A DNA stretch of 64,000 nucleotides, from positions 2,390,001 through 2,454,000 of the forward strand of contig NC_091940.1 of NCBI RefSeq assembly GCF_041260155.1. The letters are read 5' to 3'. The notes below the pieces were generated by a model, which was not told the DNA's origin, did not search any database, and saw only the letters and a list, made by a program, of their open reading frames with translations. This DNA comes from Ptychodera flava (Eukaryota; Hemichordata; Enteropneusta; Ptychoderidae). Position numbers and translations under genes: made by a program. This document shows, in pieces, positions 4,001-58,461 of the stretch. Positions within the stretch are counted from its first letter, which is position 1; each line of letters begins with the position of its first letter.

Positions 4001-7000
4001 AACTACGCAGTCATATTGACAGACTACAAAAACAGAAAGAAGACGCACAAAGAAAATGGAAGTCTGCACAACAGAGAATTCAAAGCTTGGAAAATAAGGT
4101 AAAGATTTCTGTGCAAAGCAGCTTTGCTGTAGCAGTACTGTAATGACACCATGGATTTTGATCACCAATGGATATATCAAAACATGTACAAATGAAAAAT
4201 GTCCAAATATAAATGGATGAAAACCTTGTATTTATAATGTGTTGCCCTTGAATATCAATTGAATGTGTCCTCAACAAGCAGTCTGTGGTAATTTATATGA
4301 AAATGGTGTGCCAAATTCTTGATAGAAATGAAATATTTACCCTTAGAGTTCAGTATTAACGTTAAAATTAATTTGCCGAAGTTGAAAAAAACTTTACTGA
4401 ATGTAAACACCCATGAATGTCAATTGAAAGTTGTTCATTTGAATTTAGTTATCAGAAAATGAAAGTGAAATGGAAATTGTGAAAGAGGAATTTGAGCATG
4501 ATTTGATCAAGTTAGAAGCAAGCAAACAAGAAGCAATCCAAGAACTGAAGTTGGACGCTCAACAAAATAACGAAATGTTGAATAGACGTCTTTCTCTAAT
4601 GAGAGTCAGGTTTTCACAAATAAGACCTGGCTTATTGGACATTGCTGAAGAGTACAAAAATCTCAGAAAGATATGTTCACAGTTTCCAAAGATAATCAGA
4701 GCCACAATTCAACATACCAAAAACGAGGTAAGATTACAGTAATACTTACTCATTCAGCTCCAGTTTGCTGTTATCGCTGTCTTTTCAGATGAATGATTTA
4801 GTTTGCTGTTATTGCTGTCTGTACACATCAATGATATGACAAGAAATGTAACACAGCAAGATGTTGACTTATTACCTGTGTTTATGGATATAGACGCTGC
4901 AAGTAAAATGTCATGGAAATTATATTTTTCATCAGTTTATTTTAGATCCACTTTCTTTATTCAACTTATTTATTCTTATTGAATCTTATTTTCATTGGCA
5001 CTTCAACTACAATCTAAATGGATTCCTAAATTTACCTATCATTCAATGTTATCATCATCAAACGGTTTCACAGAAATCAGATTCAATCAAGTTTAAGACT
5101 AAAATATTTCAAGCCATTAGTGTATTATGATATTTACCATCTATAAAAGAAATACTGCTGTCTGACAACTGTCAATAATACACAATGTCATTTATTCATA
5201 ACACTTTTCATTTGTTGTTGTTGTAGATCCAGCAAGCAATATCTGGTGTCAGTGAACACAACAAAGAATTGGTCAGAAAATATAAAAAAGAAATGCAGCT
5301 CAGGAAGAAATACCACAATGAATTGGTAGAGCTTAAAGGTAACTATGATTTAGTGACATATATGTGAGAGCTCAACTGATCACTTGCCAGGGTGCATGTG
5401 ACAATCAACTGATCACTTGCCAGGGTGCATGTAACAATCAACTGATCACTTGCCAGGGTGCATGTGACAATCAACTGATCATTTGCCAGGGTGCATGTGA
5501 CAATCAACTGATCATTTGCCAGGGTGCATGTGACAATCAACTGATCATTTGCCAGGCTGTTTGTGAGATTGACTTTTCAATTGCCAGTCTGAATGTGAGA
5601 TCAATTTTTCTGCTGCCAGGCTTTATATGAGATTGGCTTTTCATTTGCAAGGCTATATGTGAAAATTAATTGATCATTTGATAGACTCTGGAAGGTCAAT
5701 ATTTTCAGTCAGTCGACTGTAAGATAAGATACATCTGAAATGAAAAATGTAATACATCTGAATTTTTTAAATTTTGTCTAAAGAAAATTATATTTTACTC
5801 ATGGTTGCTTAATATCAAATTTACACGATAAGTTCTCACATGCCATTATCTTGTGTATATGAAACAATGAAAAGAGAATTTTGGTTCTTATATTGTATTA
5901 CCGTGTATAATAATTCTCATGAAGTGAAATTCTGGTATACATGTAATTATTCTCATGAAGTGAAATTCTGGCATTTCGATGTGAAAGTGAACATTGACAT
6001 GATATTTCTTTCCTGACATTTTTCTTACACAGGTAATATACGAGTGTTTTGCCGTGTGAGACCACCCATCAAAGAAGATGGAGCAGGTCTTATGGCTAGA
6101 GTTGTAGTTACCTGTGATGAAGATGATGATGGTATAGTATTTGTTACTAGCAAAGGACGAACCAATTCTTATGAAGTTGATAAAGTATTTAGCCCTTCAT
6201 CTAGTCAGGAGGAGGTAGGTATACACCAATGTATCATTCATGCTCATTCTCATGCATCCATGGATGTTATCTAATGTCAGTGAAGATATCTGTGTGCCCT
6301 CACTGTTGAGTGGTTTCATGCAGAATCATGTAGAATCCACCATTACATTCCACCATTGCAACCACTCATAGTAAACACACAGTATCTCTTCTAACCTTTC
6401 AGAAGTGACTTTGAGGACGTATACTCACTTTAGAGTTCAGATTATATCAGGAAATGTGTCTTCATATGCCACCACCAGTCTCATCATATGTTTTTTCTGC
6501 TTTCTAGGTATTTGAAGAGTGCAAACATTTGGTTGTGTCGTGTATTGATGGATACAATGTTTGCATCTTTGCATACGGTCAAACAGGATCTGGAAAGACA
6601 TACACCATGGAAGTAAGTGACTCAATGTTATATTGATAGACCCATTCAAATTTACTCTTTAGCTGCAGTGTGTAGGTCAATATGCCACTCAATAAATTAT
6701 ACTGGTATTAACTTAAGATCCATACTCAATGATTTCCATGCCAAAAGATTGATCTACACATGTGTAGATTCTGAACGTATTTGATGAATCTTATTTTGAT
6801 AAAATTGCAGAGAATGTATGTATATGTTTGTCCATGATACAGGGAAGTGAAACGTTTCAAAGTTATGACACCCTTACAATGTTCATTGAAGTATGTTCTA
6901 AAGAGAGTATGAACAACATATTTTGGTGCACAGTGCTTAACCAAGAATAAGTGTACAACTTCTGAAATGTGTACAGTTCCTTAAAGATAGCTTCATGACA

Positions 7001-10000
7001 AGTCATATTATATCATATGAACTTCATATCACATATGTTATACTTTAAGACTGACTCTTCCCTGTGCATGTAAATGCAGTAATATTCAGTAAATCGGTTC
7101 AGATATGATGACCAAGGATAAATGTATATCATTGAATTTGGCAGGGACCAGCAGATGACCTTGGTATCAATCAGAGAGCATTACAGTTGTTGTTTGATGA
7201 GAGAGAAGACAGAGAAAAGGAATGGGATTACGTTATCACTGTCAGTATTATGGAAATCTACAATGAAATGCTCAGGTAACAACAAAAGTCTGATCTAGTC
7301 ACCATCTCTGTATCTCAATTTTAGTGAGGTTTTGAAGAACAAAATAATATGTGCAATCTGGTGACTGTCTCTTGACCCTTGATTTGATGTATGGCTCTAT
7401 ACTAACCCTTGTCCTGCCAGTCCTTTCACTTTCCCATCTGTCAAATCAGGAAAATGCTATATTGAACCAAAGCCTGTATGTATTGTCATCCACTTGGCTC
7501 GGTCTGTTATAGCATCTTAGTCTGTAAAATGGTTACAGTCCCTGTGTTTTCATAGGCCTTCAAATGTTCAAGTCTTTGTTAAAATGCAACTTAAAGGAGA
7601 TGTCACGCCTCACTGGTTTCAACAAACTTGACCTGATGGTGAGCTTGGTAGGATAAGTGTCAAGTACTCTCAGTGGTCCATCTGAACATGGCACACAGAA
7701 CAACCTTTGCATTATTGTAGTTAGGCTACTCCCTGCTGAACTATGGAGACTGTGTTTGTGTACAGAGGGAATGAGACAACATTGTGTAATCTACATTGAG
7801 TTGTAAGAGAGCGTAGAACAGTTCTGTTATACTGTCCTGTGTATCTCTTGCTATTACCTCTATTTTATAGTGGTAAAATATAACTGTAAATTTGAGTTTT
7901 TTAACCTTTTTCACTCCAAACGGTTTCCAATGTTTCAGTCTGTGGTTTTTGGTTTTGTATGCATTGATATGATAGTTCCTTGTATAGTGTATGAACACAA
8001 AAATTCTCAAAGGTACACCACTTGTTAATGCCAATAGCTAAAAGATTATGCAATATCTGGACAAATAATTCTGTCTCTTTTACCAGTGTTTTAGTGCATA
8101 ATTTGATGGTGGTATGCGTCTCACCCCATCTGTATTCTGTGTTTCCTTCATATTTATTCATGCAACTAATGTACATTCATTTCTGATAAAGTCAAGAAAC
8201 CACAAAAAGCTATTTACATTTTGCAATATACTGTTATACATAAAGAAATATACCAAAATGAAAATAAAACTAGTTTAATAGAGTATACCAAATGTTCATT
8301 TCTTGAATTGTTTTTCTTCTCTTCTGTGCAGAGATCTTTTAAGCAATGATCCAACATATAAAATGGACATCAAAATGAATCAAGATGGTGGATTATATGT
8401 ACCGGGGTTAACTTGCCATGAAGTAGAAACTGTTGATGAGGTCAACCAGGTGAGTCACAACCTTTCCAATCAGCATCCAACAACTTATTATCAGAAATTA
8501 TGGACAAATAATAGACAAGACAATGACAAAAATGTAGCTGCTTTTAAATTGTTTAACTTGATTGCTGAAATGACTTCTGTTGAAGGTGTAAATATTGCTT
8601 GTTTCCTTGACATTTGCAGGTATTGAACTTGGCCAAGGTAAACAGAGCCACTGCTTCCACTAATATGAATGAACACAGCTCAAGGTCACATGCATTGTTA
8701 TGTGTAACAGTGAAAGGTATGAACAGAACTACAGGCAGTAGAACAATTGGTAAGTCATCTTCTTATTGGTGGCAGCATGGCAACTATGATTTCATTGTTA
8801 CCTAGTTACCTATTACCATAGTGACACTGTCTCATCTAATTATTTCTGTATGTCTATCCATGCCTTTTTTCACTGCACATATCACCTGTGTTCTCTCTAT
8901 CTTTGAATCTTCACTTTTATTTTGAAGATTTGTGTCCCGATCTTTTGATAGCCAACTGCCAACTCATAAGTCATTTCTTTAGTAGTATGTTGTGAAACCT
9001 TGATACAGTGTTTTTTTTATAGGAAACTAACACCTGTGAGAAAAGCCTAGTTCTCTTGTCTATTGCCATAGACCATGAGAATAGCAATTCTAAAGTTGAT
9101 GGAATTCCTTTGGTCCTATAACAGGACCATCATCTTTACTTTGGAGACCGATAGATTCTGAAATGGATTTGTTGATGCCAGTGTTTTGTGTACTTGATCC
9201 ACAGGGAGACTCAACCTAGTTGACCTTGCCAGTGTTTTGTGTACTTGATCCACAGGGAGACTCAACCTAGTTGACCTTGCCAGTGTTTTGTGTACTTGAT
9301 CCACAGGGAGACTCAACCTAGTTGACCTTGCCAGTGTTTTGTGTATTTGATCCACAGGGAGACTCAACCTAGTTGACCTTGCCAGTGTTTTGTATATTTG
9401 GTCCACAGGGAGACTCAACCTAGTTGATCTTGCCAGTGTTTTGTGTATTTGATCCACAGGGAGACTCAACCTAGTTGACCTTGCCAGTGACCTTGCCAGT
9501 GTTTTGTGTACTTGATCCACAGGGAGACTCAACCTAGTTGACCTTGCCAGTGTTTTGTATATTTGATCCACAGGGAGACTCAACCTAGTTGACCTTGCCA
9601 GTGTTTTGTGTATTTGATCCACAGGGAGACTCAACCTAGTTGACCTTGCCAGTGACCTTGCCAGTGTTTTGTGTATTTGATCCACAGGGAGACTCAACCT
9701 AGTTGACCTTGCCAGTGTTTTGTATATTTGATCCACAGGGAGACTCAACCTAGTTGATCTTGCCAGTGTTTTGTGTATTTGATCCACAGGGAGACTCAAC
9801 CTAGTTGATCTTGCCAGTGTTTTGTGTATTTGATCCACAGGGAGACTCAACCTAGTTGACCTTGCCAGTGTTTTGTGTATTTGATCCACAGGGAGACTCA
9901 ACCTAGTCGACCTTGCAGGATCTGAAAGGGTTAGTAAATCAGGTGCTGATGGTGCTAGGTTGAAGGAAGCACAAAATATCAACAAATCATTATCTTCACT

Positions 10001-13000
10001 TGGTGATGTCATCCACGCATTGAGAAATAAACAAGGACACATACCATACAGAAATTCAAAACTAACGTATCTACTACAAGACTCCTTAGGTGAGTACTAA
10101 AATGCGTTTTTATGTCGCCATCTTTGTTCACACAGCAAGTAAATTTGGTGTTCAGGCAAGTGAAATATAAGTATTCTGCGTGTCTTAAAGGCAAGTACAT
10201 TTGAACGAACTATGCACAGAACAATTTAGATTGAAGTTTGAAAATGTATTTCATTCAGTCTGTAGACACTTGGATGTCACTGCAAGTCAAACATTTTAAA
10301 GCTTTTGTGAAAACCCTATGGAAGAGTGTCCTGGAGATCGATTAACTAGATCTCGAAATGACTGTTCTCTGTATCCGGTGTATCAGTGTACAAATCAACT
10401 GTACTTGATAGTGTAACTGCACCATTATGCTCGGTAAATGGACTGTAAACTTATTCAAAGCCACCAATGTTGTGAGTTTTTAATGGGCTCTGGCAAGCCC
10501 CATGCCATCAAAGGCGACATAGTACAGACTATTTCTATTTTGAGGTGACCTTTAATTGGGAGGGATGGGCCGCTACATTTGCAAAAGCATCAGTAGAGGG
10601 AAAATCAGCTCTGAAAAGTTCTGTTTGCTTCAAAAATATAAGAGTCAAATTCAGAAAGACTGCCATGCATTACAAGCAAACGTGTTCTTAAGGGGTGCAG
10701 ATGTACAAATACATAGGCAAACAGCAATAATGAGTAGCAGCTAGGCATATTGTAATTGGGAAAAGTTTGAACAGAATACTTATGAAAGATTTTATTTTAT
10801 GGATAACGTTATGAAAAAGTTTCAAAATAAGAAGTTTTTTAGATGTCCAAAATCTGCAGTAAAGAAAAAAAATAGTCTTAATGTAACTTTTTTCACATTT
10901 TACGTGTGATAGCAATCCTTCATTCTGAGAAAATATAGTTGGTGTTTGAATCCGCTCTTGTTCTTCTTCAGCTACACTTGCTCCCTAGGGTTTCCTTTTA
11001 ACAAAACTATATTCATATTTAATCAAAAGGGACAAATTATTTGTACAGTTACTTGAAATTGAAGATCCAGGCAAGTGAAATTTAAAATTCACTCTTCTCA
11101 AGTTTAAACAAATTTGAGACCTGTGTTAAAATGACACCAGTTTAATATTTTACAAAGGAAATGATGATTTCATCTTTGTAAATGCAGTGAATTGTAGTGT
11201 TTTAGTAATTTTTACACTGCAAAACTTGTCACATTACTAAGTGACAGAGGTTTTAGAGACACAGTAAGCTTTTTTAAGATGTCACTTTTAGATACAAACA
11301 TCTGTCTTGACAATCCATAAAAAAGTCAAAGAACTTGCAAACAAAATCATCTGAGAAACCTGTGATAGTATATTCTTTGTTATATAAACAAAGCTTGGCA
11401 AACTTTACAGAAAAGTGATAGATCATACAATGATTTGATGTTTTTCATTTTTTAGGTGGAGACAGCAAGACATTGATGGTAGTTCAAGTGTCTCCAGTAG
11501 AAAAGAATTGTGGAGAAACTTCATCAAGTCTGAGTTTTGCACAGAGAGTACGTACTGTTGAACTTGGCCAGGCTTCCAAGAAGATGGAAAGTTCAGAAAT
11601 TGCTATGCTAAAGGGTAGATTGGCTCAATATGAGGTAAACAACACAAAATATTCATCAATGTACATAAGATATGAAAAATATGCATGACTAGGTTATGCT
11701 GCATTGCAAGTACAATGCTAATGTTATCCTTAAAGCCTCAGTGGCTCAGGTTTTTTTCTCACTATTTGCCTAATGTTACAATTGTACAATGACTGTATTT
11801 ATATTTAATGGTAAATTTTAGTTTTCAAATTTGATTTTTTCCAATACATGCCAAATTATGACCATTTATGTATTATTTTATGGAAAATATACAAACATGC
11901 TGTTTCTGTGTTTGTGTAGATGGAAAACAACACCAAAAAAATGCAATGATCTTTCTGTGTTCATTCACCCATAAAAAACACTGCTTGGGAGTTCAATGTT
12001 TAGAAAGCAATTGTGCAGTAATAAAAACTGTCTGGAAATATTTTATTGGAAGTAGACATAAGAAAAAAAGGAGTAAAATATCAAATCAGTTGCATGTTTA
12101 CAAGGTGAATATTTCACTTTATATGTTACATCAATGGTGATAGAGTTTACTCTGCCTTAAGAAACAGAAACTGAAACACTGTCAGTGTGGAATTTGATAT
12201 TTTAAGAAAAAATTAAAGAAAGAGTTGCCGTAACTGTGGCTTTTAATAAAGAAAATAATTTCTAAATCATAGATTGTTGTATGCAGTTATATTACGCTGT
12301 TTTAAAGTTTAAACCAAGTTTCAGCAACGTAATTGCATCCAAACAACAATGTTGTTAACTTAGAAAATAATGACAATGCTCTGTGCAAGATTTATACCTA
12401 CAAAAAAGCAAGTTGACACCAAACTTAGACTAGTGCTTTCTTTAAACAGCTATAATGTAGATAGTAAATGCTGTATGCTAGATTGACATAGTGTATCAAA
12501 TAGAAGTGAATGAAATTCACATGTTGCTGTACATGTCCAATACTAACCATTAAAGACTGTCCCTTTCATCTTTGTAAATTTTGGAACTATATCATAACTT
12601 TAGTTTCATGTCACACATCTACATCTCTGATAAAAATCACATAACAATCTTAGTCCTTACATTATTGTCTTTGATTTCAATGTGAAATGTAGCTTACTCT
12701 TTCTCTTTAACTGTTCTCCATTTTCTTTCATAATTTCTGTTTCAAGTTGCCTCCAATTGATGAACAAAGTGAAATCACTTCTGGTATGCACCACCTTTCC
12801 TACTTTATATCTTTGTTTTGTCTCCTTATATTTGTTTTGTCTCTATTTTCTTCCTGTCACCCAGCACACTCTGTGAATTAGAGTCTTTCAAACTGTTCTA
12901 TCATTATTCTTCACATACACCTGGATTATGACTTTTCATTGACTTGCCACATGTATGATATTCTCATGAGTACACAGACAGACACACACAAACATGGCAC

Positions 13001-15609: not shown

Positions 15610-16865
15610 GGATTTGATGGGATGGGATGGGATAGTACTTCATTGGGAAAGGATTTGATGGGATGGGATGGTACTTCATTGGATAAGGATTTGATGGGAT
15701 GGGATGGTACTTCATTGGGTAAGGATTTGATGGGATGGGATGATACTTCATTGGGAGAGGATTTGATGGGATGGGATGATACTTCATTGGGTAAGGATTT
15801 GATGGGATGGGATGATACTTCATTGGGAGAGGATTTGATGGGATGGGATGGTACTTCATTGGATAAGGATTTGATGGGATGGGATGGTACTTCATTGGGT
15901 AAGGATTTGATGGGATTGGATGGTACTTCATTGGGTAAGGATTTGATGGGATGGGATGGTACTTCATTGGGAAAGGATTTGATGGGATGGGATGGTACTT
16001 CATTGGGTAAGGATTTGATGGGATGGGATGGTACTTCATTGGGTAAGGATTTGATGGGATGGGATGGTACTTCATTGGGTAAGGATTTGATGGGATGGGA
16101 TGGGATGGTACTTCATTGGGAAAGGATTTGATGGGATGGGATGGTACTTCATTGGGAAAGGATTTGATGGGATGGGATGGTACTTCATTGGGTAAGGATT
16201 TGATGGGATGGGATGGTACTTCATTGGGTAAGGATTTGATGGGATGGGATGGTACTTCATTGGGTAAGGATTTGATGGGATTGGATGGTACTTCATTGGG
16301 TAAGGATTTGATGGGATTGGATGGGATGGTACTTCATTGGGTAAGGATTTGATGGGATGGTACTCCACTTGGTTTTAATGGCTTGGCACTTCATTGTGTT
16401 AGAATTTGATGGGATGGCACTTCATTGGGTTAGGGTTTAATAGGTAGCACCACATTTGTTTAGGATTTGACAGGGTAGCACTTTATTGGGTTAGGATTTG
16501 ATGGGGTAGCTCTTTATTGGGTTAGGATTTGATGGGGTAGCTCTTTATTGGGTTAGGATTTGATGGAATGGGATGGGATGGTACTTCATTGGGTTAGGAT
16601 TTAATAGGTAGCACCACCTTTGTTAGGATTTGACAGGGTAGCACTTTATTGGGTTAAGATTTGACAGGGTAGCACTTTATTGGGTTAGGATTTGATGGGG
16701 TAGCTCTTTATTGGGTTAGGATTTGATGGGGTAGCTCTTTATTGGGTTAGGATTTGATGGGGCAGCTTTTTATTCGGTTAGGATTTGATTGGATGGCACT
16801 TTATTGAGTTAGGATTTAACAGGGTAACACACCACTGTGTTAGGATTTGACAGGAAAGTACTCCA
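15610..16865. repeat. 36-bp G-rich minisatellite (about 20 copies) with degenerate extension
   Basis: The unit starts GGATTTGATGGGATGGGATG and continues GTACTTCATTGGGTAA. The regular part runs to about 16360. Decayed units (GGATTTGATGGGGTAGCTCT and similar) continue to about 16865. Since 36 is a multiple of three, long open frames appear on both strands (MGWDGTSLGKDL forward, MKYHPIPSNPYP reverse). These are repeat artefacts. Confidence 0.92.
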
Positions 16866-32400: not shown

Positions 32401-33859
32401 GAAACCCACTCTGTAGGGTAATTTACAACAAATGGTTAATTTAATGTTGTCTTCTATTATTCACAAATGTTTGCATTATCCATGAAAATGTAAATAATAC
32501 AACACGATAGTCTACTTTTCAAGTTAAAAGTGCGTCGAAAGACGAGAAACTGAATGTTTGGTGCGTTGTAAATAGAAAACGTTGACTTGAACAGACTTTT
32601 AATCAGACTCGGATGCATGAACATATTGCGTCATGTGTTGGTTATTTTTCATCACAACTTGCAAGGACGCAAAGCTTATTTATTACCTACAGTGTATTTA
32701 TAGGCACACAAACAGCCAACCCAATGCTAGTGAATGCGCTCAATAACACTGATAGATCCGAATGACCAGGAAGGGCAAAAGAAGACAAAAAAATACCATC
32801 AATGAATACTATTTTATCGAGTATTTTATTTCCAAATTGACGTTTTTGAGATTTGACAGGTGTTTAGTTGATTTAACGATGAATTCTAGACCCCAGCATC
32901 ATCATTGTGATCTAGGGTTCCTTTGAGATTTCTGCAAAAAATTAAGGCGTTGATAAAATGGAAAGTTAGTGAGTGATAAATAGAAACTATTTTCATTACC
33001 AAAATTTTACACAAGCAGAGACATTTTCGCTTGTAAGAGGGTCGCCCCGAGGATGAAGGAGAAAACTTGTCGAGCGGTTAAATCATTATAGTTTAAAACG
33101 TTTACGATTTTATAGCACGAATTTTTCTTTTTTAACCCCATACATGGTGATAGTCTGAAGTAGTGGAGACAAACAATGATTTTAATTCGAGAGCAAAGTG
33201 CTCATTACAGGTCTAATCATACGACCAATACAGTGAATTATAAAACAGCAAAAAAGGCGAAGCTTTCAATAATAACAATACTGAATTTTCCGACGGGTTA
33301 AAACAAAACACCACATACTTGTATTAAGTTACATTTAGCAATGCCTGGATTACTATGAAAATGTATTATTTTGTATTATGAAGTTGGAAATGAAAGTTGG
33401 CGATACCACTTCAAAAGTTTCATACGTCTGTAGTCTGTGTTTTTAATATTCTGAAAAATGTAGTTGGATTATATTGTATTGTAAAGTTGGATAATTTGCT
33501 GTACCATTTAGGTCTTTTAATATTTTATCTCGGCAGTAACTCCAGAAAAATGCAAACAACTGCTGCAACACTACCGAACGGCACTAGCATGCAACATGGG
33601 CCCACGTTCAACCCTGTTCTATCTCTTCCAAGAGAGAGTATTCTCAAAAGAAACTATCGACGACATCAGAAAGAAGGGTAAAGGGGATCAATATGAAACA
33701 AACGTCGAAATCATTGAACAACTGATGCAAAAAGGTGTGAGAGAATTTGAAGTACTCATCAAGATATTACGTAAATTACAACTAAATTTGTTAGCAGACA
33801 TACTGGAAGAGCAAAGAACATCAGGTATTTATTTTAATAAAAATAATGCTACTGAGATA

Positions 33860-33890
<31 letters not shown>

Positions 33891-35259
33891 TGTATGTATG
33901 TATGTCAGCATCAGCAGTACATTGATGTTGAAGTAGATCGTGAGGTGTGTACATGGATATGATATGTCAGTAAACAATGCTTCTGTTTGCAAGTGTCAGT
34001 GAATAAATGAGTGTGCTCGTGCACAGTGAAGGGTGCAAATGCTGATGATATTGCATGCAATTGCCTTCAAAGATAGTTGAACATTACTCAGTTGTAAACT
34101 GTTTTCAGGTTCAAGAAACAATTTTATGACAACACTTACAGTACGGTATTTTCCTGAAGACAAATATAACTAGACAAAATTTATGAAAACAAAGTGTTTC
34201 AACTTTCACAGATATTCTACATTTGACTGAACCAACGAGTCGGAAGTTGGGTTTTCATTGGAAGAGGATAGCAGATGAATTAGGAATGAAGTCGATGATT
34301 CCAATCATACAGGATCGCTATCCCGACAAACTCAGGGAGCAAGCACTTTATATGCTACTCATGTGGGAAGAAAGGGATGGCATTGGAGCTAATGGAAGAC
34401 GGCTGACACAATTACTGGAAATGTGCAATATGAGGGCTGCTGCAGGTATATAGTGCCTTATCTCTTTACAAAAATGAGTCACAATGCAGAACTCATTTAG
34501 GATTATAAATTGGTTTCTTGCTTTCTTGTAAAGTAATTGTTATTGCAATAACAAAAACGAACTGCTTAGTTCTTCCCAGCATTCCCCACATTGTATTGCA
34601 GTCCCCTTCTGACCAGTCTTCTTTTGTGTAAGAATGGCTTAAATGAAAAATAAAATTACATTCTCAAGCCAACCATGAAATATCACTGTGAACTTAAATC
34701 TTATCAGCTGTTATTGTTATTATTGCAAGTTGAGGAAATGCTTATTAATTATTCATGTTGAAGGGAAGTCTCCTGGTAGTGAGTGATATTTGTACAGTGA
34801 TCATAGGATAGATATAGACCTCATTTCCTTTGATGTCCAATAAACAGTCAATGTTACACTTATCAATCATTGTTTGTATTAAATGCACTGAGAGGTCTGT
34901 TCACATCTTAAACCTGGTCCATAGACTATGTTGCTCTAGAGTATGCATAATAACAAATTTTGTTCTGTTTTGCAGAAAATGTTGAAGTGATTATGAATGG
35001 AGGAAAGAAAAAGAAGAAGAAAAAGAAGGGAAAGAAAGGTGAAAGTATTGCAATATTTCAATTGTTCATTAATTCATCGTTCTATGTGTGATGACTTTGA
35101 TATGGATATGATAGTGAGACAGCTTTATCAAGAGAAATCAAAACTAAAACAGTTAGAAAGGACAACTCTTTCATGATGTTGACTTACTGATTAAAACTTT
35201 GATTCATTTTCACAGGAAAGAAGTCTGGAAAGAAGAAAAGTAAATCAGCCAAACTATAG
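26438..35259 (+). CDS. CARD + Death-domain adaptor (CRADD/RAIDD-like) with lysine-rich tail
   Basis: Five exons join with matching phases: 26438-26477, 33537-33824, 34212-34445, 34976-35038 and 35216-35259. They encode 222 residues ending at a TAG. Residues 14-106 look like a CARD (LTPEKCKQLLQHYRTAL, then VREFEVLIKILRKLQLNLLA). Residues 110-187 look like a Death domain (RKLGFHWKRIADELGM, then LREQALYMLLMWEERDGIGA). The CARD-then-Death order is that of the caspase-2 adaptor CRADD/RAIDD (199 residues in human), which links PIDD1 to caspase-2. The tail from about 198 is nearly all Lys/Gly/Ser, which CRADD lacks. The start rests on a short first exon whose single overhanging base completes a Leu codon with exon 2. 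The domain calls are by pattern only. One-to-one orthology with CRADD is not claimed, because deuterostome invertebrates have expanded CARD/Death families. Confidence 0.8.
26967..27072. mobile_element. 106-bp near-perfect palindrome, possible minimal MITE
   Basis: The left arm TAGCCCTGCGTACAGGTCTG TGTGTTCCCGGCGTATAC returns as GTATAACGCCGGGAACACAC and then AGACCTGTACGCAGGGCTA. The centre is CCACCACAT C ATGTGGTGG at 27019. The heptamer GTGATCT flanks both sides (26960-26966 and 27075-27081), as expected of a target duplication. It lies in intron 1 of the CARD-Death gene. Confidence 0.85.
27412..28114. mobile_element. about 700-bp foldback element with about 215-bp inverted arms, TA target
   Basis: The left end is TA then CAGCAAAAAACAGGATGG. 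The right end is CCATCCTGTTTTTTGCTG then TA. The arms match over about 215 bases with small indels, down to CAGCTGTAGCCAGCTGGCA and its complement. The loop (about 27631-27888) has no recognised gene. Ends in CAG...CTG with TA duplication suggest mobilisation by a Tc1/mariner-type transposase. It lies in intron 1 of the CARD-Death gene. A partial relative is at 21254-21424. Confidence 0.85.
28115..33536 (+). other. remainder of CARD-Death intron 1
   Basis: No exon or known element is recognised. Positions 29498-29632 contain about 2.3 copies of a 58-60-bp repeat built on CAAAGCTCAGTACCCGGATC and a CGGTAGAAGCATGGT stretch. Confidence 0.5.
33537..33824 (+). CDS. CARD-Death gene exon 2 (CARD)
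   Basis: The acceptor is ctcggcag and the donor is gtattt. The exon encodes the complete CARD, from TPEKCKQLLQHYRTALACN to LADILEEQRTS. A GTAT microsatellite starts about 40 bases past the donor. Confidence 0.88.
33862..33904. repeat. GTAT microsatellite
   Basis: About ten tetramer units lie 40 bases past the exon-2 donor of the CARD-Death gene. Confidence 0.95.
34212..34445 (+). CDS. CARD-Death gene exon 3 (Death domain)
   Basis: The exon encodes ILHLTEPTSRKLGFHWKRIA through RRLTQLLEMCNMRAAA. The WKxIAxELG and LxxMLxxWxER patterns are typical of Death domains. The acceptor is tttcacag and the donor is gtatat. Confidence 0.88.
34976..35038 (+). CDS. CARD-Death gene exon 4 (lysine run)
   Basis: The exon encodes NVEVIMNGG followed by eight Lys, Gly, Lys, Lys. 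The acceptor is ttttgcag and the donor is gtgaaa. Phase agrees on both sides. Confidence 0.8.
35216..35259 (+). CDS. CARD-Death gene exon 5 and stop
   Basis: The exon encodes KKSGKKKSKSAKL and then TAG. The acceptor is ttttcacag. Confidence 0.8.
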
Positions 35260-38614: not shown

Positions 38615-41600
38615 CTGAAATAATGAGAAAATAAAATATCATACCAATTTCTTGTTGATGTAAAATCCATAAATTCATAACAAGTATGGTTTACATATTT
38701 CACTTTTTATTTGACATACCGTAGCTGAAAATTACAGAATGAGTACTGCATGGCTCACCAATACGAAGTGACCAAAATACATTTATTATTTTGCTGAAGA
38801 TAACTGTTTCCATAGACAACAGAACATTAGTTTTACTAATTACACTAACTATATAAGATTGAGACACAGCATGATATTTGTAAAAGTAGTGGTACATGAG
38901 ATTGAGACAACATAATATTTACAGCAGTATATGGAGTTGAGACACAGCATGATATTTGTAGCAGTAGTAGTACATGAGATTGAGACACAGCATGATATTT
39001 GTAACAGTAGTAGTACATGAGATTGAGACACAGCATGATATTTGTAGCAGTAGTAGTACATGAGATTGAGACACAGCATTATATTTACAGCAGTAGTAGT
39101 ACATGAGATTGAGACACAGCATGATATTTGTAGCAGTAGTAGTACATGAGATTGAGACACAGCATGATATTTGTAACAGTAGTAGTACATGAGATTGAGA
39201 CACAGCATTATATTTACAGCAGTAGTAGTACATGAGATTGAGACACAGCATGATATTTGTAGCAGTAGTAGTACATGAGATTGAGACACAGCATGATATT
39301 TACAGCAGTAGTAGTACATGAAATTGAGACACAGCATTATATTTGTAGCAGTAGTAGTACATGAGATTGAGACACAGCATGATATTTGTAAAAGTAGTAG
39401 TACATGAGATTGAGACAGCATGATATTTGTAACAGTAGTAGTACATGAGATTGAGACACAGCATTATATTTACAGCAGTAGTAGTACATGAATTGAGACA
39501 CAGCATGATATTTGTAACAGTAGTAGTACATGAAATTGAGACACAGCATGATATTTACAGCAGTAGTAGTAAATGAGATTGAGACACAGCATGATATTTG
39601 TAACAGTAGTAGTACATGAGATTGAGACACAGCATTATATTTACAGCAGTAGTAGTACATGAAATTGAGACACAGCATGATATTTGTAACAGTAGTAGTA
39701 CATGAAATTGAGACACAGCATGATATTTACAGCAGTAGTAGTACATGAGATTGAGACACAGCATGATATTTGTAGCAGTAGTAGTACATGAGATTGAGAC
39801 ACAGCATGATATTGTAGCAGTAGTAGTACATGAGATTGAGACACAGCATGATATTTGTAACAGTAGTAGTACATGAATTGAGACACAGCATGATATTTAT
39901 AAAAGTAGTAGTACATGAGATTGAGACACAGCATGATATTTACAGCAGTAGTAGTACATGAGGTTGAGACACAGCATGATATTTGTAGCAGTAGTAGTAC
40001 ATGAGATTGAGACACAGCATTATATTTGTAGCAGTAGTAGTACATGAAATTGAGACACAGCATGATATTTACAGCAGTAGTAGTACATGAAATTGAGACA
40101 CAGCATTATATTTGTAACAGTAGTAGTACATGAGGTTGAGACACAGCATGATATTTGTAACAGTAGTAGTACATGAGATTGAGACACAGCATGATATTTA
40201 CAGCAGTAGTAGTACATGAGATTGAGACACAGCATGATATTTGTAGCAGTAGTAGTACATGAGATTGAGACACAGCATGATATTTGTAGCAGTAGTAGTA
40301 CATGAGATTGAGACACAGCATGATATTTACAGCAGTAGTAGTACATGAGATTGAGACACAGCATGATATTTGTAACAGTAGTAGTACATGAGATTGAGAC
40401 ACAGCATGATATTTACAGCAGTAGTAGTACATGAGGTTGAGACACAGCATGATATTTACAGCAGTAGTAGTACATGAGATTGAGACACAGCATGATATTT
40501 GTAACAGTAGTAGTACATGAGATTGAGACACAGCATGATATTTGTAGCAGTAGTAGTACATGAGATTGCGACACAGCATGATATTTAAGGAGGCATCATG
40601 GGCCAGTGGCTAGAGCAGTGGACGCACGATCACAGGATGGTGAGTTCGAGCCCCGGCATGGCTATGGTGTTGTGTCCTTGAGCAAGGCACTTTATTCCTC
40701 ATTGCTTCTCCCCACCCAGGAGTGATGGGTACCTGGTAGGCAGTGGTTGTAATGTGTGCGTTTAGCTCTGCTGCGCTTATTGGCTGCACATGTGAGCTGT
40801 AGTTTGCTCCCAAGGGAGTTGAGTGGTATCAAATTAGGTCCGATGACCAGGGGTAATAATAATTGTAAAGCGCCTTGAGCACATGTACTTGTGGATATGT
40901 GCGCTATATAAGAACCCAATATTATTATTATTATTATATTTGTAACAGTAGTAGTACATGAGATTGAGACACAGCATGATTAGTGCAGCAATAGTAGTAC
41001 TGAGATTGAGACACAGCATTATATTTACAGCAGTAGTAGTACATGAGATTGAGACACAGCATTATATTTGTAGCAGTAGTAGTACATGAGATTGAGACAC
41101 AGCATGATTTGTGCAGCAATTGTAGTACATGAGATTGAGACACAGCATGATATTTGTAGCAGTAGTAGTATAACATTTCACTAATAAGAAAAGTGTTGTA
41201 TCATACAAAATAAACGAAGACAGGTAAATCAACAATTATCATTGACGACATTACCTCTAGCTATATTAATAATGAAAACAAAGCTTGGTAAGGAAAACTG
41301 ATAAACCTTAGAATAAATATTTTCATCAATGCTACTGACCGTTCAGCCATTTCTTCATCTGATACAGCTACTTTTTTCTCCCTCTCTTCAGCTAAATTTA
41401 ATTCTTGTTCCGTGTCCTGTTGTTTCATAAGTTTCTACAAAGTAAAACAGTTTAGAATCATTTGAAATTTCAACTGCATTGCCATAGTAAATGACACAAA
41501 GTTTTCAGTCTCATATTCTTTGTGTGAGGATGATTTGCATCATACTGAGTGATTATGATTTGCACCATACTGAGTGATTATGATTTGCACCATACTGAGT

Positions 41601-44600
41601 GATTATTACTGTGTTCCCACTAGCCAAACCAACGCCGCCGGTAACTAACGGTTTTGATTGGTAAACACCTGTGGATTAACCCTTAATCTCTACTTATGTC
41701 CATACACGGAATTTCCTCCGGTGTTTTGAGGAAAACACCGGTGTTTTGCGCCCTCTACGTTCAATATATGTCTATAGTACAGGTTGGATATAAACAACAA
41801 TGGCGGATGTCCAGGACGCAACTGTAGCGGCGTGTCTCCTGTATTTTCACCTTCATATGCGATCCAGACGGATTCAACAGTTCAATCGTCGCCTCAGGAA
41901 TGCATAAATGGACTCACAACGAGACCCAAACATTGATATTCTTGCCTCGCTATTCGATGAGCAAGATCACTAAAACCCATTAAAATAATTTTTCACAAAC
42001 CAAACAAAGGAAAGAATCTACACTGCGACTGATGAGAAACCACACTCGGGTTTCGAAACGCTAGCGTCAAAGGGCCACTCTATCAACTTTGTAACACCAT
42101 AGGTCCGGCTGCGTCTCGCCATAAGCTTTCCCCACACAAACAAAAAGTTACCGTACACACTAATCCAAACTTCCCTACAAATATCCGAGGCGAAACAAAC
42201 ATTTTTTATTAACACAAACAATCGGATAAGAATGTAGGAACACATTTTTGAAACGAACCAAACACAAACTCGACACAAAAACATTTTGGATAGTTTATGT
42301 GGGCAGCCTCTTTCACACTTTATACATGGGAGCGAGAGATCTGTTGTCTTCCATGGTTCGTGTCGAGTCCAGCTATGCGTACTGTGCACTCGAGCTGATA
42401 GGTCAGAGGTAATGTTTTGGACAAAAGTCGTCGCGAGAGGGCGTTTACACCGTCGTTAACCGTTCTGACACACAATTTGCGTCGGCGCGCCGTTGCAGGT
42501 CTGACGAAATTCGACGCCGTAGATCGACGCCGTCGCAGCACCGTCGTTAACTGTTCTCACACGTGGTTTTCGTCGTTGTTTACCATAACAACGGCGTTCA
42601 CAACGTTGTTAAATGCTGTGTCAGAACGGCCCTTTTGATTTGCTCCATACTGAGTGATAATGATTTGCATCATACTGAGTAATTATGATTTGCATCATAC
42701 TGAGTGATTATGATTTGCACCATACTGAGTGATTATGATTTGCACCATACTGAGTGATTATGATTTGCACCATACTGAGTGATTATGATTTGCACCATAC
42801 TGAGTAATTATGATTTGCACCATACTGAGTGATTATGATTTGCATCATACTGAGTGATTATGATTTGCATCATACTGAGTGATTATGATTTGCTCCATAC
42901 TGAGTGATTATGATTTGCATCATACTGAGTGATTATGATTTGCATCATACTGAGTGATTATGATTTGCACCATACTGACCTCTATGGCTGGATTGAAACC
43001 TTTGAAAGACATTCTACCATATTTGAGATCTTCACATGTGACATAGCTTGGCTCTATTGTAAACTTAGTCCTGTGAATAAAATCAGTGAGAGGTCTTAAG
43101 CATTCAAGAGCGTTAGAAATCACTGGGGATGTAAATGCAATACCACATAGCACTACTACAACATCAGTGAAAAATTTATTCTTCAGACGCAAGAGCGTTC
43201 AATACCAGTAGATGTACATACACCTAAATACAGTGTGTGGAGGTGGGGACTGTAATTGAATACTACTGTGTCATGTAGTTTTGGGTATTTTGCCACTACT
43301 TTTTGGTCTACATAACTGATTGGCAAGAATGCTGGTGTATAATTATTAGTCAACATTGTAATTTCTTTAGTTTCATTATCATCTGTTGTTATGATTTATT
43401 ACTCACTGTTTTGCTTGAAGTTCTGGAAGATCTAAAACCCAGTGACTATCATCAATTCGTCTCTGTTGTTCTTGTTCTTCTTCAACGTTTGTAGCATCTT
43501 TATTTCTTTGCATAAACTGTTGGCAGATAAAACCATTCATATTAAAACTTGTAGATTTGCCATTGTTTTCAGAGACTACAACAGTTAGTAAAACGTGAAA
43601 ACATAAATGTACATTAATTAACAAGTCACTGACAATGACACAGTCCCCACTTGTTAATGGGTACTTTAATTACAAGTCCTCTGAGAGGAAAGAGTCCTCC
43701 TCATTAATCAGGTCTGTGACTGCAAATACTGCGATATAGATGGGGCTTAATGGCCAAAAATGAGTTCCATGGTGGTGAAAACATAAAACCAATGTAAGTC
43801 ACCATGCTAATTACAAATAGTCATTAAAATGAATCAATAAATACTTAATCGACAGGATGCTGCCAAACATTTTTGCATCCTATCCTAACCCTGACAGATT
43901 ATCACTGGTACCATATTTCATAAAGTTTGATGTAGTACTTTGGACATTCACCCTAAAAACAAAAATCCATTATGTAAATGCAAACTAGCAATTAATTTAT
44001 ATACATGATACCACTAAGTGTCATTGATTTGTACTTTCAACACTATGAGATCAAAATCTGTACCAAATTTCATCAAATTTAACAGTTTTTGTGGATATAT
44101 CACTCTAATTAGGAAAGTTCATTACATATGCAATTACAAAGTAATTAACTTGACACTGATAAATGTCTTTTTCACAGTTAAAGCAATGTGAGCTTAAAGC
44201 CCCAAGAGCTGGAACTTTTGACATTATTTTCATGATTTTACTTTCAAACCACTTTCAAACCTTTGTTCGTGATTGGATGTTCAAATGTGAATAAAATGAT
44301 TATTAAACGGGTGCCGCACCCGTTTAAGGTAATATGCACCTCGAAAGTGAAAGACTTAAACTTTTGCTCAAACTTTCCTCAGTTAAACTTTCAACCATTC
44401 TCTTACCGAAGCAAGAATAAAAATCAGGGGTCACCGTGCAAACTTTGGCACTAGAGAGACAAATAACTTGCGATTTCTCGATATTTGAAATTCAAAATGG
44501 CCACCATCCCTGTGTTAACTCTATGGGAAAAAAATAAAATTTTCGATTTTCGAAAAACTAAGACGGTGAAAACTTTTCTTTCGCCAAGAGCTTCAAAATG

Positions 44601-56552: not shown

Positions 56553-57605
56553 CTAAACGAAACAGTCAAGAATGCCTGCCTTCGAAAAACCCTCCACAAG
56601 TTCATCACGGCGCTGAGATACATTCTGGACGGCGGACACCAACCATTTCGCGTGGAGAGGTTTAACTTCTGATAGACGCAAATCTAAGGTCGGATCTTCA
56701 TCACCATTTTGCATCGCTGTACACATTCGATCGCTGTACCAATGCTGAAATTCGTGCTTCATGATGTCCTTGAAAACTTTGTTGGCAGCTAAATCCATAG
56801 GCTGAAGGCGATCAGTACACGATGCTGGGACGTAGACGACGGAAATGTTGTGGTTGTTGAGTTCTTTCAACAATTCTTCACTGCGATGTGCCTTGTATAC
56901 GTCGAATATGGCGATGGCTTGCTGGTCGGAAGGGAGTTCTAGCCGAGATCGAGTAGCGTCGACATACGGGATGAACACCTTGTTGATGTAGCGCATCATG
57001 GAAGCGTGATTCGACCAGTGGCTTTCTGTGTGGAAAATGTCCCAAGAGTCCGGAAACGCGTAAGTGGGGTGACAGCGATCAGTCTTGCCTTGATATAGAA
57101 GTTGCGGCGGAAGAAAATCACCAGCTGCAGACGAAGCAAACACGGCCGTAATTTGACGCTTGTCATCCAAACCCACGATGGAAACTTGACGACTTCCTTC
57201 TTCTTCCATAGTCCACTGGCCGACAGGAATGATGGACACGCCAGTCTGGTCCCAGTTTATGACGAGCTGTGGGGGTACGCAATGCTGCTGAATGACATTC
57301 CGTATGCGCTGAAGAAAAGTTTCTTTGATTGATGGAAAGTCGTCGACGTTCGCCTTGACAGCTTTCGTTCCCTTCCGCTTCACATACCCCATGCGGCCTA
57401 GCAAAGACTTTGCCCAGTCCACAGTCAGAGTAATGTGTCCGCCAAACTCTGCTAATGAACTACGGTTGGTGTGGAGAAGCAGACCTCGAGCAATGCATGG
57501 CGATGCAGACTGATGAATTAACGACACCGCCCTTGATTCGAATCTGCCGAACGTATGACTGAACTTTCGAATCAAGGTCACCACCGAGCATGACAGGACG
57601 ACCAC
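56553..57605 (-). CDS. pogo transposase catalytic part (DDE_1)
   Basis: The frame has 350 codons. Genuine homology starts near residue 40 (ARGLLLHTNRSSLAEFGGHI). The DDE catalytic acidic residues fit INWDQTG (Asp119), AIFDVYKAH (Asp235) and LQPMDLAANKVFKD (Asp271). This DD35D spacing and the NWDQTG/CTDRLQPMD context are typical of metazoan pogo-like DDE_1 transposases of the Tc1/mariner superfamily. The first 35 or so residues are out-of-frame read-in, reflecting a single frameshift relative to the N-terminal frame. Confidence 0.9.
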   Translation of the reverse strand: MVVLSCSVVTLIRKFSHTFGRFESRAVSLIHQSASPCIARGLLLHTNRSSLAEFGGHITLTVDWAKSLLGRMGYVKRKGTKAVKANVDDFPSIKETFLQRIRNVIQQHCVPPQLVINWDQTGVSIIPVGQWTMEEEGSRQVSIVGLDDKRQITAVFASSAAGDFLPPQLLYQGKTDRCHPTYAFPDSWDIFHTESHWSNHASMMRYINKVFIPYVDATRSRLELPSDQQAIAIFDVYKAHRSEELLKELNNHNISVVYVPASCTDRLQPMDLAANKVFKDIMKHEFQHWYSDRMCTAMQNGDEDPTLDLRLSEVKPLHAKWLVSAVQNVSQRRDELVEGFSKAGILDCFV

Positions 57606-58038
57606 GTGATGATGCTAACTCGTCTATGTTTTCTTTACCGCTTCTCACTGCCCGGATGTACGCTTTTTTCATGCCGCGAACGGTACTCTCACTGATCGGC
57701 GTGCCCAGTTCTTTCGTGAATTTACGAGCTGCGTTCATCACACCGTTGTCGATAGCAAACTTTGCGATCTTTGCTCTTGTACCATTGTCGTAATGTTGAT
57801 AATTACCGCGCTTTCGTTTCCTACTACTCGATGCGGTGATTTCTTCGTTGACAGCTGCGATGGTTTCAGGTAGCAGATGACAGGTCTTCACGTCTATAAC
57901 ATCGTTAGGGTCAGGCAAACCGGGTTGGGTTGGAGTCGGCAAGGGAGCCTTCTTCAACCATTTCAGCAGGCCAGAAGACATTGTGACGTTTGTAGAATAG
58001 AAGTACTGTAGTTGATCTGACAGCGAGAGATGTGACAC
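57460..58038 (-). CDS. pogo transposase N-terminal part (DNA binding)
   Basis: The frame has 192 codons. After an acidic/Pro-rich start (SGLLKWLKKAPLPTPTQPG) it carries a basic segment and a psq-like helix-turn-helix (YDNGTRAKIAKFAIDNGV, then ISESTVRGMKKAYIRAVRS). A CENP-B-like start follows (RGRPVMLGGDLDSKVQSYVR). The frame then shifts near 57500, after VVNSSVCIA, into unrelated residues. Continuation lies in the overlapping frame ending at 56553. Confidence 0.85.
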   Translation of the reverse strand: MSHLSLSDQLQYFYSTNVTMSSGLLKWLKKAPLPTPTQPGLPDPNDVIDVKTCHLLPETIAAVNEEITASSSRKRKRGNYQHYDNGTRAKIAKFAIDNGVMNAARKFTKELGTPISESTVRGMKKAYIRAVRSGKENIDELASSRGRPVMLGGDLDSKVQSYVRQIRIKGGVVNSSVCIAMHCSRSASPHQP

Positions 58039-58461
58039 AAGCGACGGCTAGACGTGTACTGACGTCTCGTCAAAAATTGTTCATCATTTATAGAGAATTT
58101 TACTATCATCTTGCGGTTGTGAAAGACCTATCCTTTGACGGTTCTGGCGGTTTTGGTTTGTTTACAGGAAAAATATCCTTTGTACCCCGCAGGGTGTGAG
58201 CGTTGTGTTGTCATTTCAGTCAATGTGAAAAAGGTGTCAACAACATGCCTTTTAGTGGAACAACGTATGACAGCGTAGCTTACCAGTATACTTATTACAA
58301 TGAAAACGTCGTCTTTGTCGGTTTGTTTCTTCAAAGGAAAAGTTACAAGTATGTGACAACGCTGATGAACTAGTGCTGAGCGCGAATTTAAAACACCGCC
58401 AACGACGCGATCGTGTGAGTGGCGCGAAATTTTAACCCGCGATTATTCCCCTCTTACAGTA

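Follow-up and report, generated by a model that had tools for sequence, protein, structure and literature searches.

Tandem repeats that extend across intron-exon boundaries are a named phenomenon in amphioxus, where they are called mirages (PMC3087553). Cases named are amphioxus Adh3 and TnC and the globin genes BflGb6 and BflGb9 (PMC3087553, PMC3902484), and unit lengths in the cases cited range from 10 to 160 bp (PMC3087553). In the BflGb6 mirage, the 3' terminus of an intron is repeated together with the 5' part of an exon; one haplotype has 6 units and another 3, each 150-160 bp long, and the edge units are reported to escape homogenization (PMC3087553). Lancelet PGBD5 has repeats of 60 and 108 bp at its splice sites; their copy numbers in two sequence versions are 2 or 7 and 3 or 6, and they were likened to mirages (PMC3902484). 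According to the globin paper, the AG and GT signals of such repeats could act as cryptic sites, and the amphioxus Adh3 data and globin RT-PCR are described there as suggesting that normal splicing is left undisturbed (PMC3087553); the PGBD5 paper likewise states that the Adh and TnC mirages yield no aberrant mRNAs (PMC3902484).

Related cases are known from potato and human. In the potato RdRp gene, an intron was gained by a single tandem duplication across such a boundary (PMC4974935). Human segmentally duplicated genes are described as having internal tandem repeats at exon-intron boundaries, with units averaging 30 bp repeated 4 times and altered introns backed by transcripts (PMC2812944). 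The original prediction for the locus analyzed here had held that units straddling such a boundary are rarely described, which was too strong (PMC3087553, PMC4974935, PMC2812944).

The locus lies in a 64 kb stretch of Ptychodera flava DNA with a GC content of 37%, hereafter the window. Its host is a kinesin gene with the following features, in which a slash marks the splice junction.

4449-11634, + strand: part of a KIFC3-like kinesin gene with nine mapped exons, from the spliced frame and Pfam; where the first exon begins is uncertain
4449-4727, 5227-5338, 6033-6214, 6508-6612, 7145-7275, 8332-8449, 8620-8749, 9892-10089 and 11456-11634, + strand: the nine exons
8620-8749, + strand: upstream exon, encoding NEHSSRSH, donor TTG/GTAAGT
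8750-9891, + strand: host intron, 1142 nt, phase 1, containing 13 decoy units
9892-10089, + strand: authentic exon, 198 nt, donor TAG/GTGAGT

Splicing of the nine exons through the acceptor at 9892 gave a 478-residue frame with 0 stops for the mapped part of the gene, and the product contained a complete kinesin motor (Pfam PF00225, E 1.6e-113, profile positions 1-327 of 327). The motor scan covered this authentic splice product only. A 148-residue part was compared with PDB, and within the best 60 of 156 matches KIFC3 (5wde) scored 198.5 bits and the next kinesin 138.7, a gap of 59.8. The full-length PF00225 match, with 5wde best among the PDB matches listed, marks the product as a kinesin motor domain closest to KIFC3, and we take the host gene to be of the kinesin-14/KIFC3 class. 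The coiled-coil exon (4449-4742) returned nothing better than E 0.79 from PDB. NEHSSRSH presumably marks the switch I region, and the start of the exon at 9892-10089 is taken to be switch II; the residues SRTI stand directly before the host intron and the switch-II region directly after it. The original prediction had set about 13 extra acceptors ahead of the authentic one at the start of the switch-II exon of a kinesin gene, with the upstream exon ending at 8749 and the authentic exon at 10089, and this anatomy proved right. Two other arrays within the gene, at 4762-4835 and 5372-5662, start 33-34 nt past the exon ends 4727 and 5338 and leave the junctions uncrossed, so that of the three array sites in 4449-11634 a single one extends across a mapped splice junction.

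The array that crosses the junction was resolved into the following parts.

9176-9916, + strand: 14-unit minisatellite array that extends over the intron's 3' end and the beginning of the switch-II exon (TRF, word count)
9178-9864, + strand: 13 decoy units, with acceptors followed by exon-like starts
9205, 9256, 9307, 9358, 9409, 9460, 9523, 9574, 9625, 9688, 9739, 9790 and 9841, + strand: the decoy exon-like starts
9865-9915, + strand: last unit, with the authentic acceptor (CCACAG, 9886-9891)

TRF returned a period of 51 with 14.1 copies and 91% matches. The 22-base word CCACAGGGAGACTCAACCTAGT, which holds the CCACAG acceptor and the first exon codons, was found exactly in 14 of 14 units, all on the + strand, starting at 9199, 9250, 9301, 9352, 9403, 9454, 9517, 9568, 9619, 9682, 9733, 9784, 9835 and 9886. 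No further match with up to three mismatches was present on either strand of the 64 kb window, and none of 100 shuffles reached 14 copies. The spacing between units was 51 bp in 11 of 13 cases and 63 bp in the other two; the 63-bp units (9433-9495 and 9598-9660) owe their extra 12 bp to a second copy of TGACCTTGCCAG. All 14 copies are composed of 27 nt derived from the intron and 24 nt derived from the exon, and kinesin coding sequence continues from the last copy only (1/14). The claims that a 51-bp unit recurs about 14 times in tandem, that each unit has CCACAG and the first exon codons, and that just one copy runs into the real exon were thus borne out.

Five sites vary across the 14 units, all by transitions, and pairwise identity over the first 49 positions is 0.92 to 1.00. 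Of the 91 pairs, 16 are identical, and units 1-3 are the same throughout their 51 bp. Three of the variable sites are in the intron-derived half; the two in the exon-derived half are third codon positions and synonymous, a number too small to speak for or against selection on that half. The last unit is the sole one of the 14 with C in GTCGAC, a synonymous change in a Val codon. The two 63-bp units are three units apart, and TRF also gave a higher-order repeat of 165 bp. This was set aside as weakly supported, as identity by lag had no peak at 3 (mean of 47.6 of 49 positions at lag 3, 47.8 at lag 1 and 48.0 at lag 6).

The window was also examined for other features. Scans for Rfam families at gathering thresholds and for tRNAs returned nothing, and a 27-base piece of the unit had 0 matches among viral contigs. 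A long minus-strand ORF at 9116-10096 was not regarded as a gene, because repeat units whose length is a multiple of three leave an open frame open. Nine other ORFs of the window were searched against Pfam, with a match in two. On the - strand, the ORF at 56553-58047 resembles that of a transposon and encodes a DDE_1 endonuclease domain (PF03184, E 1.4e-11); we take it to be pogo/Tigger-like. Its start is overlapped, in a different frame, by an ORF at 57460-58047 for which Pfam returned nothing. An ORF on the + strand at 33521-33859 has a CARD domain (PF00619, E 1.9e-06) and is followed by a TATG microsatellite at 33861-33905. Further arrays include a 36-bp array of about 20 copies (GATGGGATGGGATGGTACTTCATTGGGTAAGGATTT) at 15621-16854, grading into several related periods; a 43-bp minisatellite of 38.5 copies at 38937-41170, with a second block of the same period and 5.5 copies about 350 bp on; and a 25-bp unit, TGATTTGCACCATACTGAGTGATTA, occurring in two registers in separate arrays at 41530-41606 and 42636-42978, about 1 kb apart.

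The kinesin array resembles the amphioxus mirages in being a minisatellite-like tandem duplication of an intron-exon boundary. Its units span the boundary in tandem and are of minisatellite length (51 and 63 bp), and the authentic copy stands at the edge of the array with the host frame intact over the nine mapped exons. As in the BflGb6 mirage, it joins the last part of an intron to the 5' part of an exon and has an edge unit unlike the inner ones; the private synonymous C of the last unit recalls the BflGb6 edge units reported outside homogenization (PMC3087553). Whereas BflGb6 has 3 or 6 units of 150-160 bp, the array here has 14 units with a period of 51 bp, and its host is a kinesin gene. 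The copy number exceeds the counts reported in these sources for BflGb6 (3, 6) and PGBD5 (2 or 7, 3 or 6) (PMC3087553, PMC3902484). The potato RdRp duplication likewise runs from the 3' part of an intron into the exon that follows and includes a branch site, tract and acceptor; in potato, however, there is a usable GTAAG donor and a new intron with RNA-seq support, whereas the kinesin unit is without a good donor. The human segmental-duplication repeats are also minisatellite units at exon-intron boundaries, variable in copy number, but average 30 bp x 4 as opposed to 14 x 51 bp. The kinesin array thus appears to belong to the mirage kind already described, as a striking example of it.

When the upstream exon (end 8749) was spliced to each decoy acceptor in turn and the frame followed to 10089, an in-frame TGA was encountered in 13 of 13 cases. 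Ten decoys reached it after a switch-II-like peptide ending in I/T, or a YI variant. In decoys 6 and 9 it follows a short SDLA insert, whereas decoy 4 meets it one unit later, unit 5 having TGG instead of TGA. The TGA is located in the intron-derived part, TTGATCCACAG. It had been predicted that the splicing machinery must skip the decoys or use them; this can fairly be kept in the form that decoys must be skipped or purged, since every one gives a premature stop if joined to the same exons. Exons started at decoys would be 249 to 885 nt long, and length alone does not rule decoys out, as the 249 nt of decoy 13 is an ordinary size. Six of the 13 decoys are identical to the authentic site from -20 to +3, decoy 9 remains the same for 65 nt upstream, and identity downstream extends for 16 nt in every decoy. 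Splice-site sequence therefore cannot decide for those six; the real acceptor is no stronger there, and the difference is what follows. With an unfitted weight matrix, the strongest GT in the array scored 2.7 (at the two 12-bp insertions) and the other repeated GT contexts -0.1; by the same matrix, the real donors at 8450, 8750 and 10090 scored 13.3, 8.5 and 11.0.

Candidate branch points were sought across 9150-9892 with yTnAy, a short consensus, and two are of particular relevance.

9172-9176, + strand: TTGAT, candidate original branch point; its A (9175) precedes the first acceptor by 29 nt
9856-9860, + strand: TTGAC from the exon-derived part of unit 13, candidate present branch point of the authentic acceptor, with its A at 9859, 32 nt away

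The TTGAT of acceptor 1 is in unrepeated intron. Acceptors 2-14 are preceded by TTGAC or TTGAT at 32 nt (11/13) or, downstream of the 12-bp insertions, at 44 nt (2/13), and here the motif derives from the exon-derived GTT GAC/GAT codons. A second TTGAT lies 7 nt before 13 of the 14 acceptors, with unit 5 as the exception, and is probably too near the acceptor to serve as a branch point. Downstream of the candidate branch A at 9859, one other AG, 8 nt on, comes before the authentic AG. These motifs suggest that every unit may constitute a full 3' splice module.

We consider it very probable that the array is a mirage-type minisatellite, with splicing mostly from 8749 to 9892 and no evident function of the array itself. 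Approximately the last 27 nt of the intron and the first 24 nt of the kinesin exon, 51 bp together, would have been duplicated in tandem, the first time perhaps via TGC common to both ends. TGC is common to the left flank TTGATGCCAGTG, the internal junction GACCTTGCCAGTG and the right edge GACCTTGCAGG at the breakpoints, and this three-base microhomology is suggestive only as the origin of the duplication. Slippage or unequal exchange would then have expanded the segment to 14 copies, and the array is now almost wholly intronic. If each unit can act by itself as a 3' splice module, with a branch-point-like TTGAC/TTGAT, a U/G-rich tract and CAG, the authentic acceptor would keep working signals at any copy number. 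Context would determine that the last copy is chosen, most likely through exon definition involving the strong 10090 donor and true-exon sequence. Transcripts using decoys would meet an early stop and be cleared by nonsense-mediated decay, which could hide even common use of decoys.

An unlikely alternative is that decoys are used appreciably to attenuate expression, copy number tuning productive kinesin mRNA through early stops. The near equality of decoy and authentic local signals, the decoys' own branch-point-like motifs and the stop in all 13 are in keeping with this, but one intron-end TGA and unit lengths divisible by three explain the stops without selection, and the Adh, TnC and globin mirages are reported as harmless to splicing (PMC3087553, PMC3902484). 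A form of this proposal, quite improbable on present evidence, is a splice rheostat: an array variable in copy number, with complete 3' modules drawing their branch point from the conserved switch-II Val-Asp codons, in which the number of units sets pre-mRNA loss to early stops. If so, repeat polymorphism would tune the dosage of the host kinesin.

It is very unlikely that the true genome has one or few copies and that the array arose in assembly. Near-identical units are difficult to assemble, and the BflGb6 mirage is said to be aberrantly assembled in the amphioxus draft (PMC3087553); against this, the irregular order of the five variable sites and the two 12-bp insertions tell the units apart, and several other, unrelated arrays are present in the window. 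Extremely improbable is the occasional inclusion of a unit as a 27-nt in-frame exon, from the acceptor to CCA/GTG, the array serving as an incipient source of exons or introns. The 27 nt preserve the frame and yield a switch-II-like duplicate (in the one case joined, unit 1), but CCA/GTGTTT is a poor donor (-0.1 versus 8.5 to 13.3 by the unfitted matrix), and the sequence left over within one 51-bp unit, 24 nt, is below workable intron size, so that inclusion would require the skipping of units. Duplications of this type have been shown to give rise to introns in potato (PMC4974935), and the same has been proposed for amphioxus globins (PMC3087553). Recursive splicing and Rogers-type intron gain, which looks to AGGT in the duplicated segment, were ruled out, as no AGGT is present on the + strand within 9178-9905.

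The preferred reading, a mirage-type minisatellite, adds a high-copy kinesin gene to the mirage kind. With 14 acceptors ahead of one exon, the locus offers a natural test of acceptor choice: local strength is constant for the six decoys identical to the real site, so position or context must decide among them. The points on acceptor choice and tolerance leave the known picture of mirages unchanged, and a branch-point-like motif derived from the exon would be a simple reason that such arrays can be tolerated.
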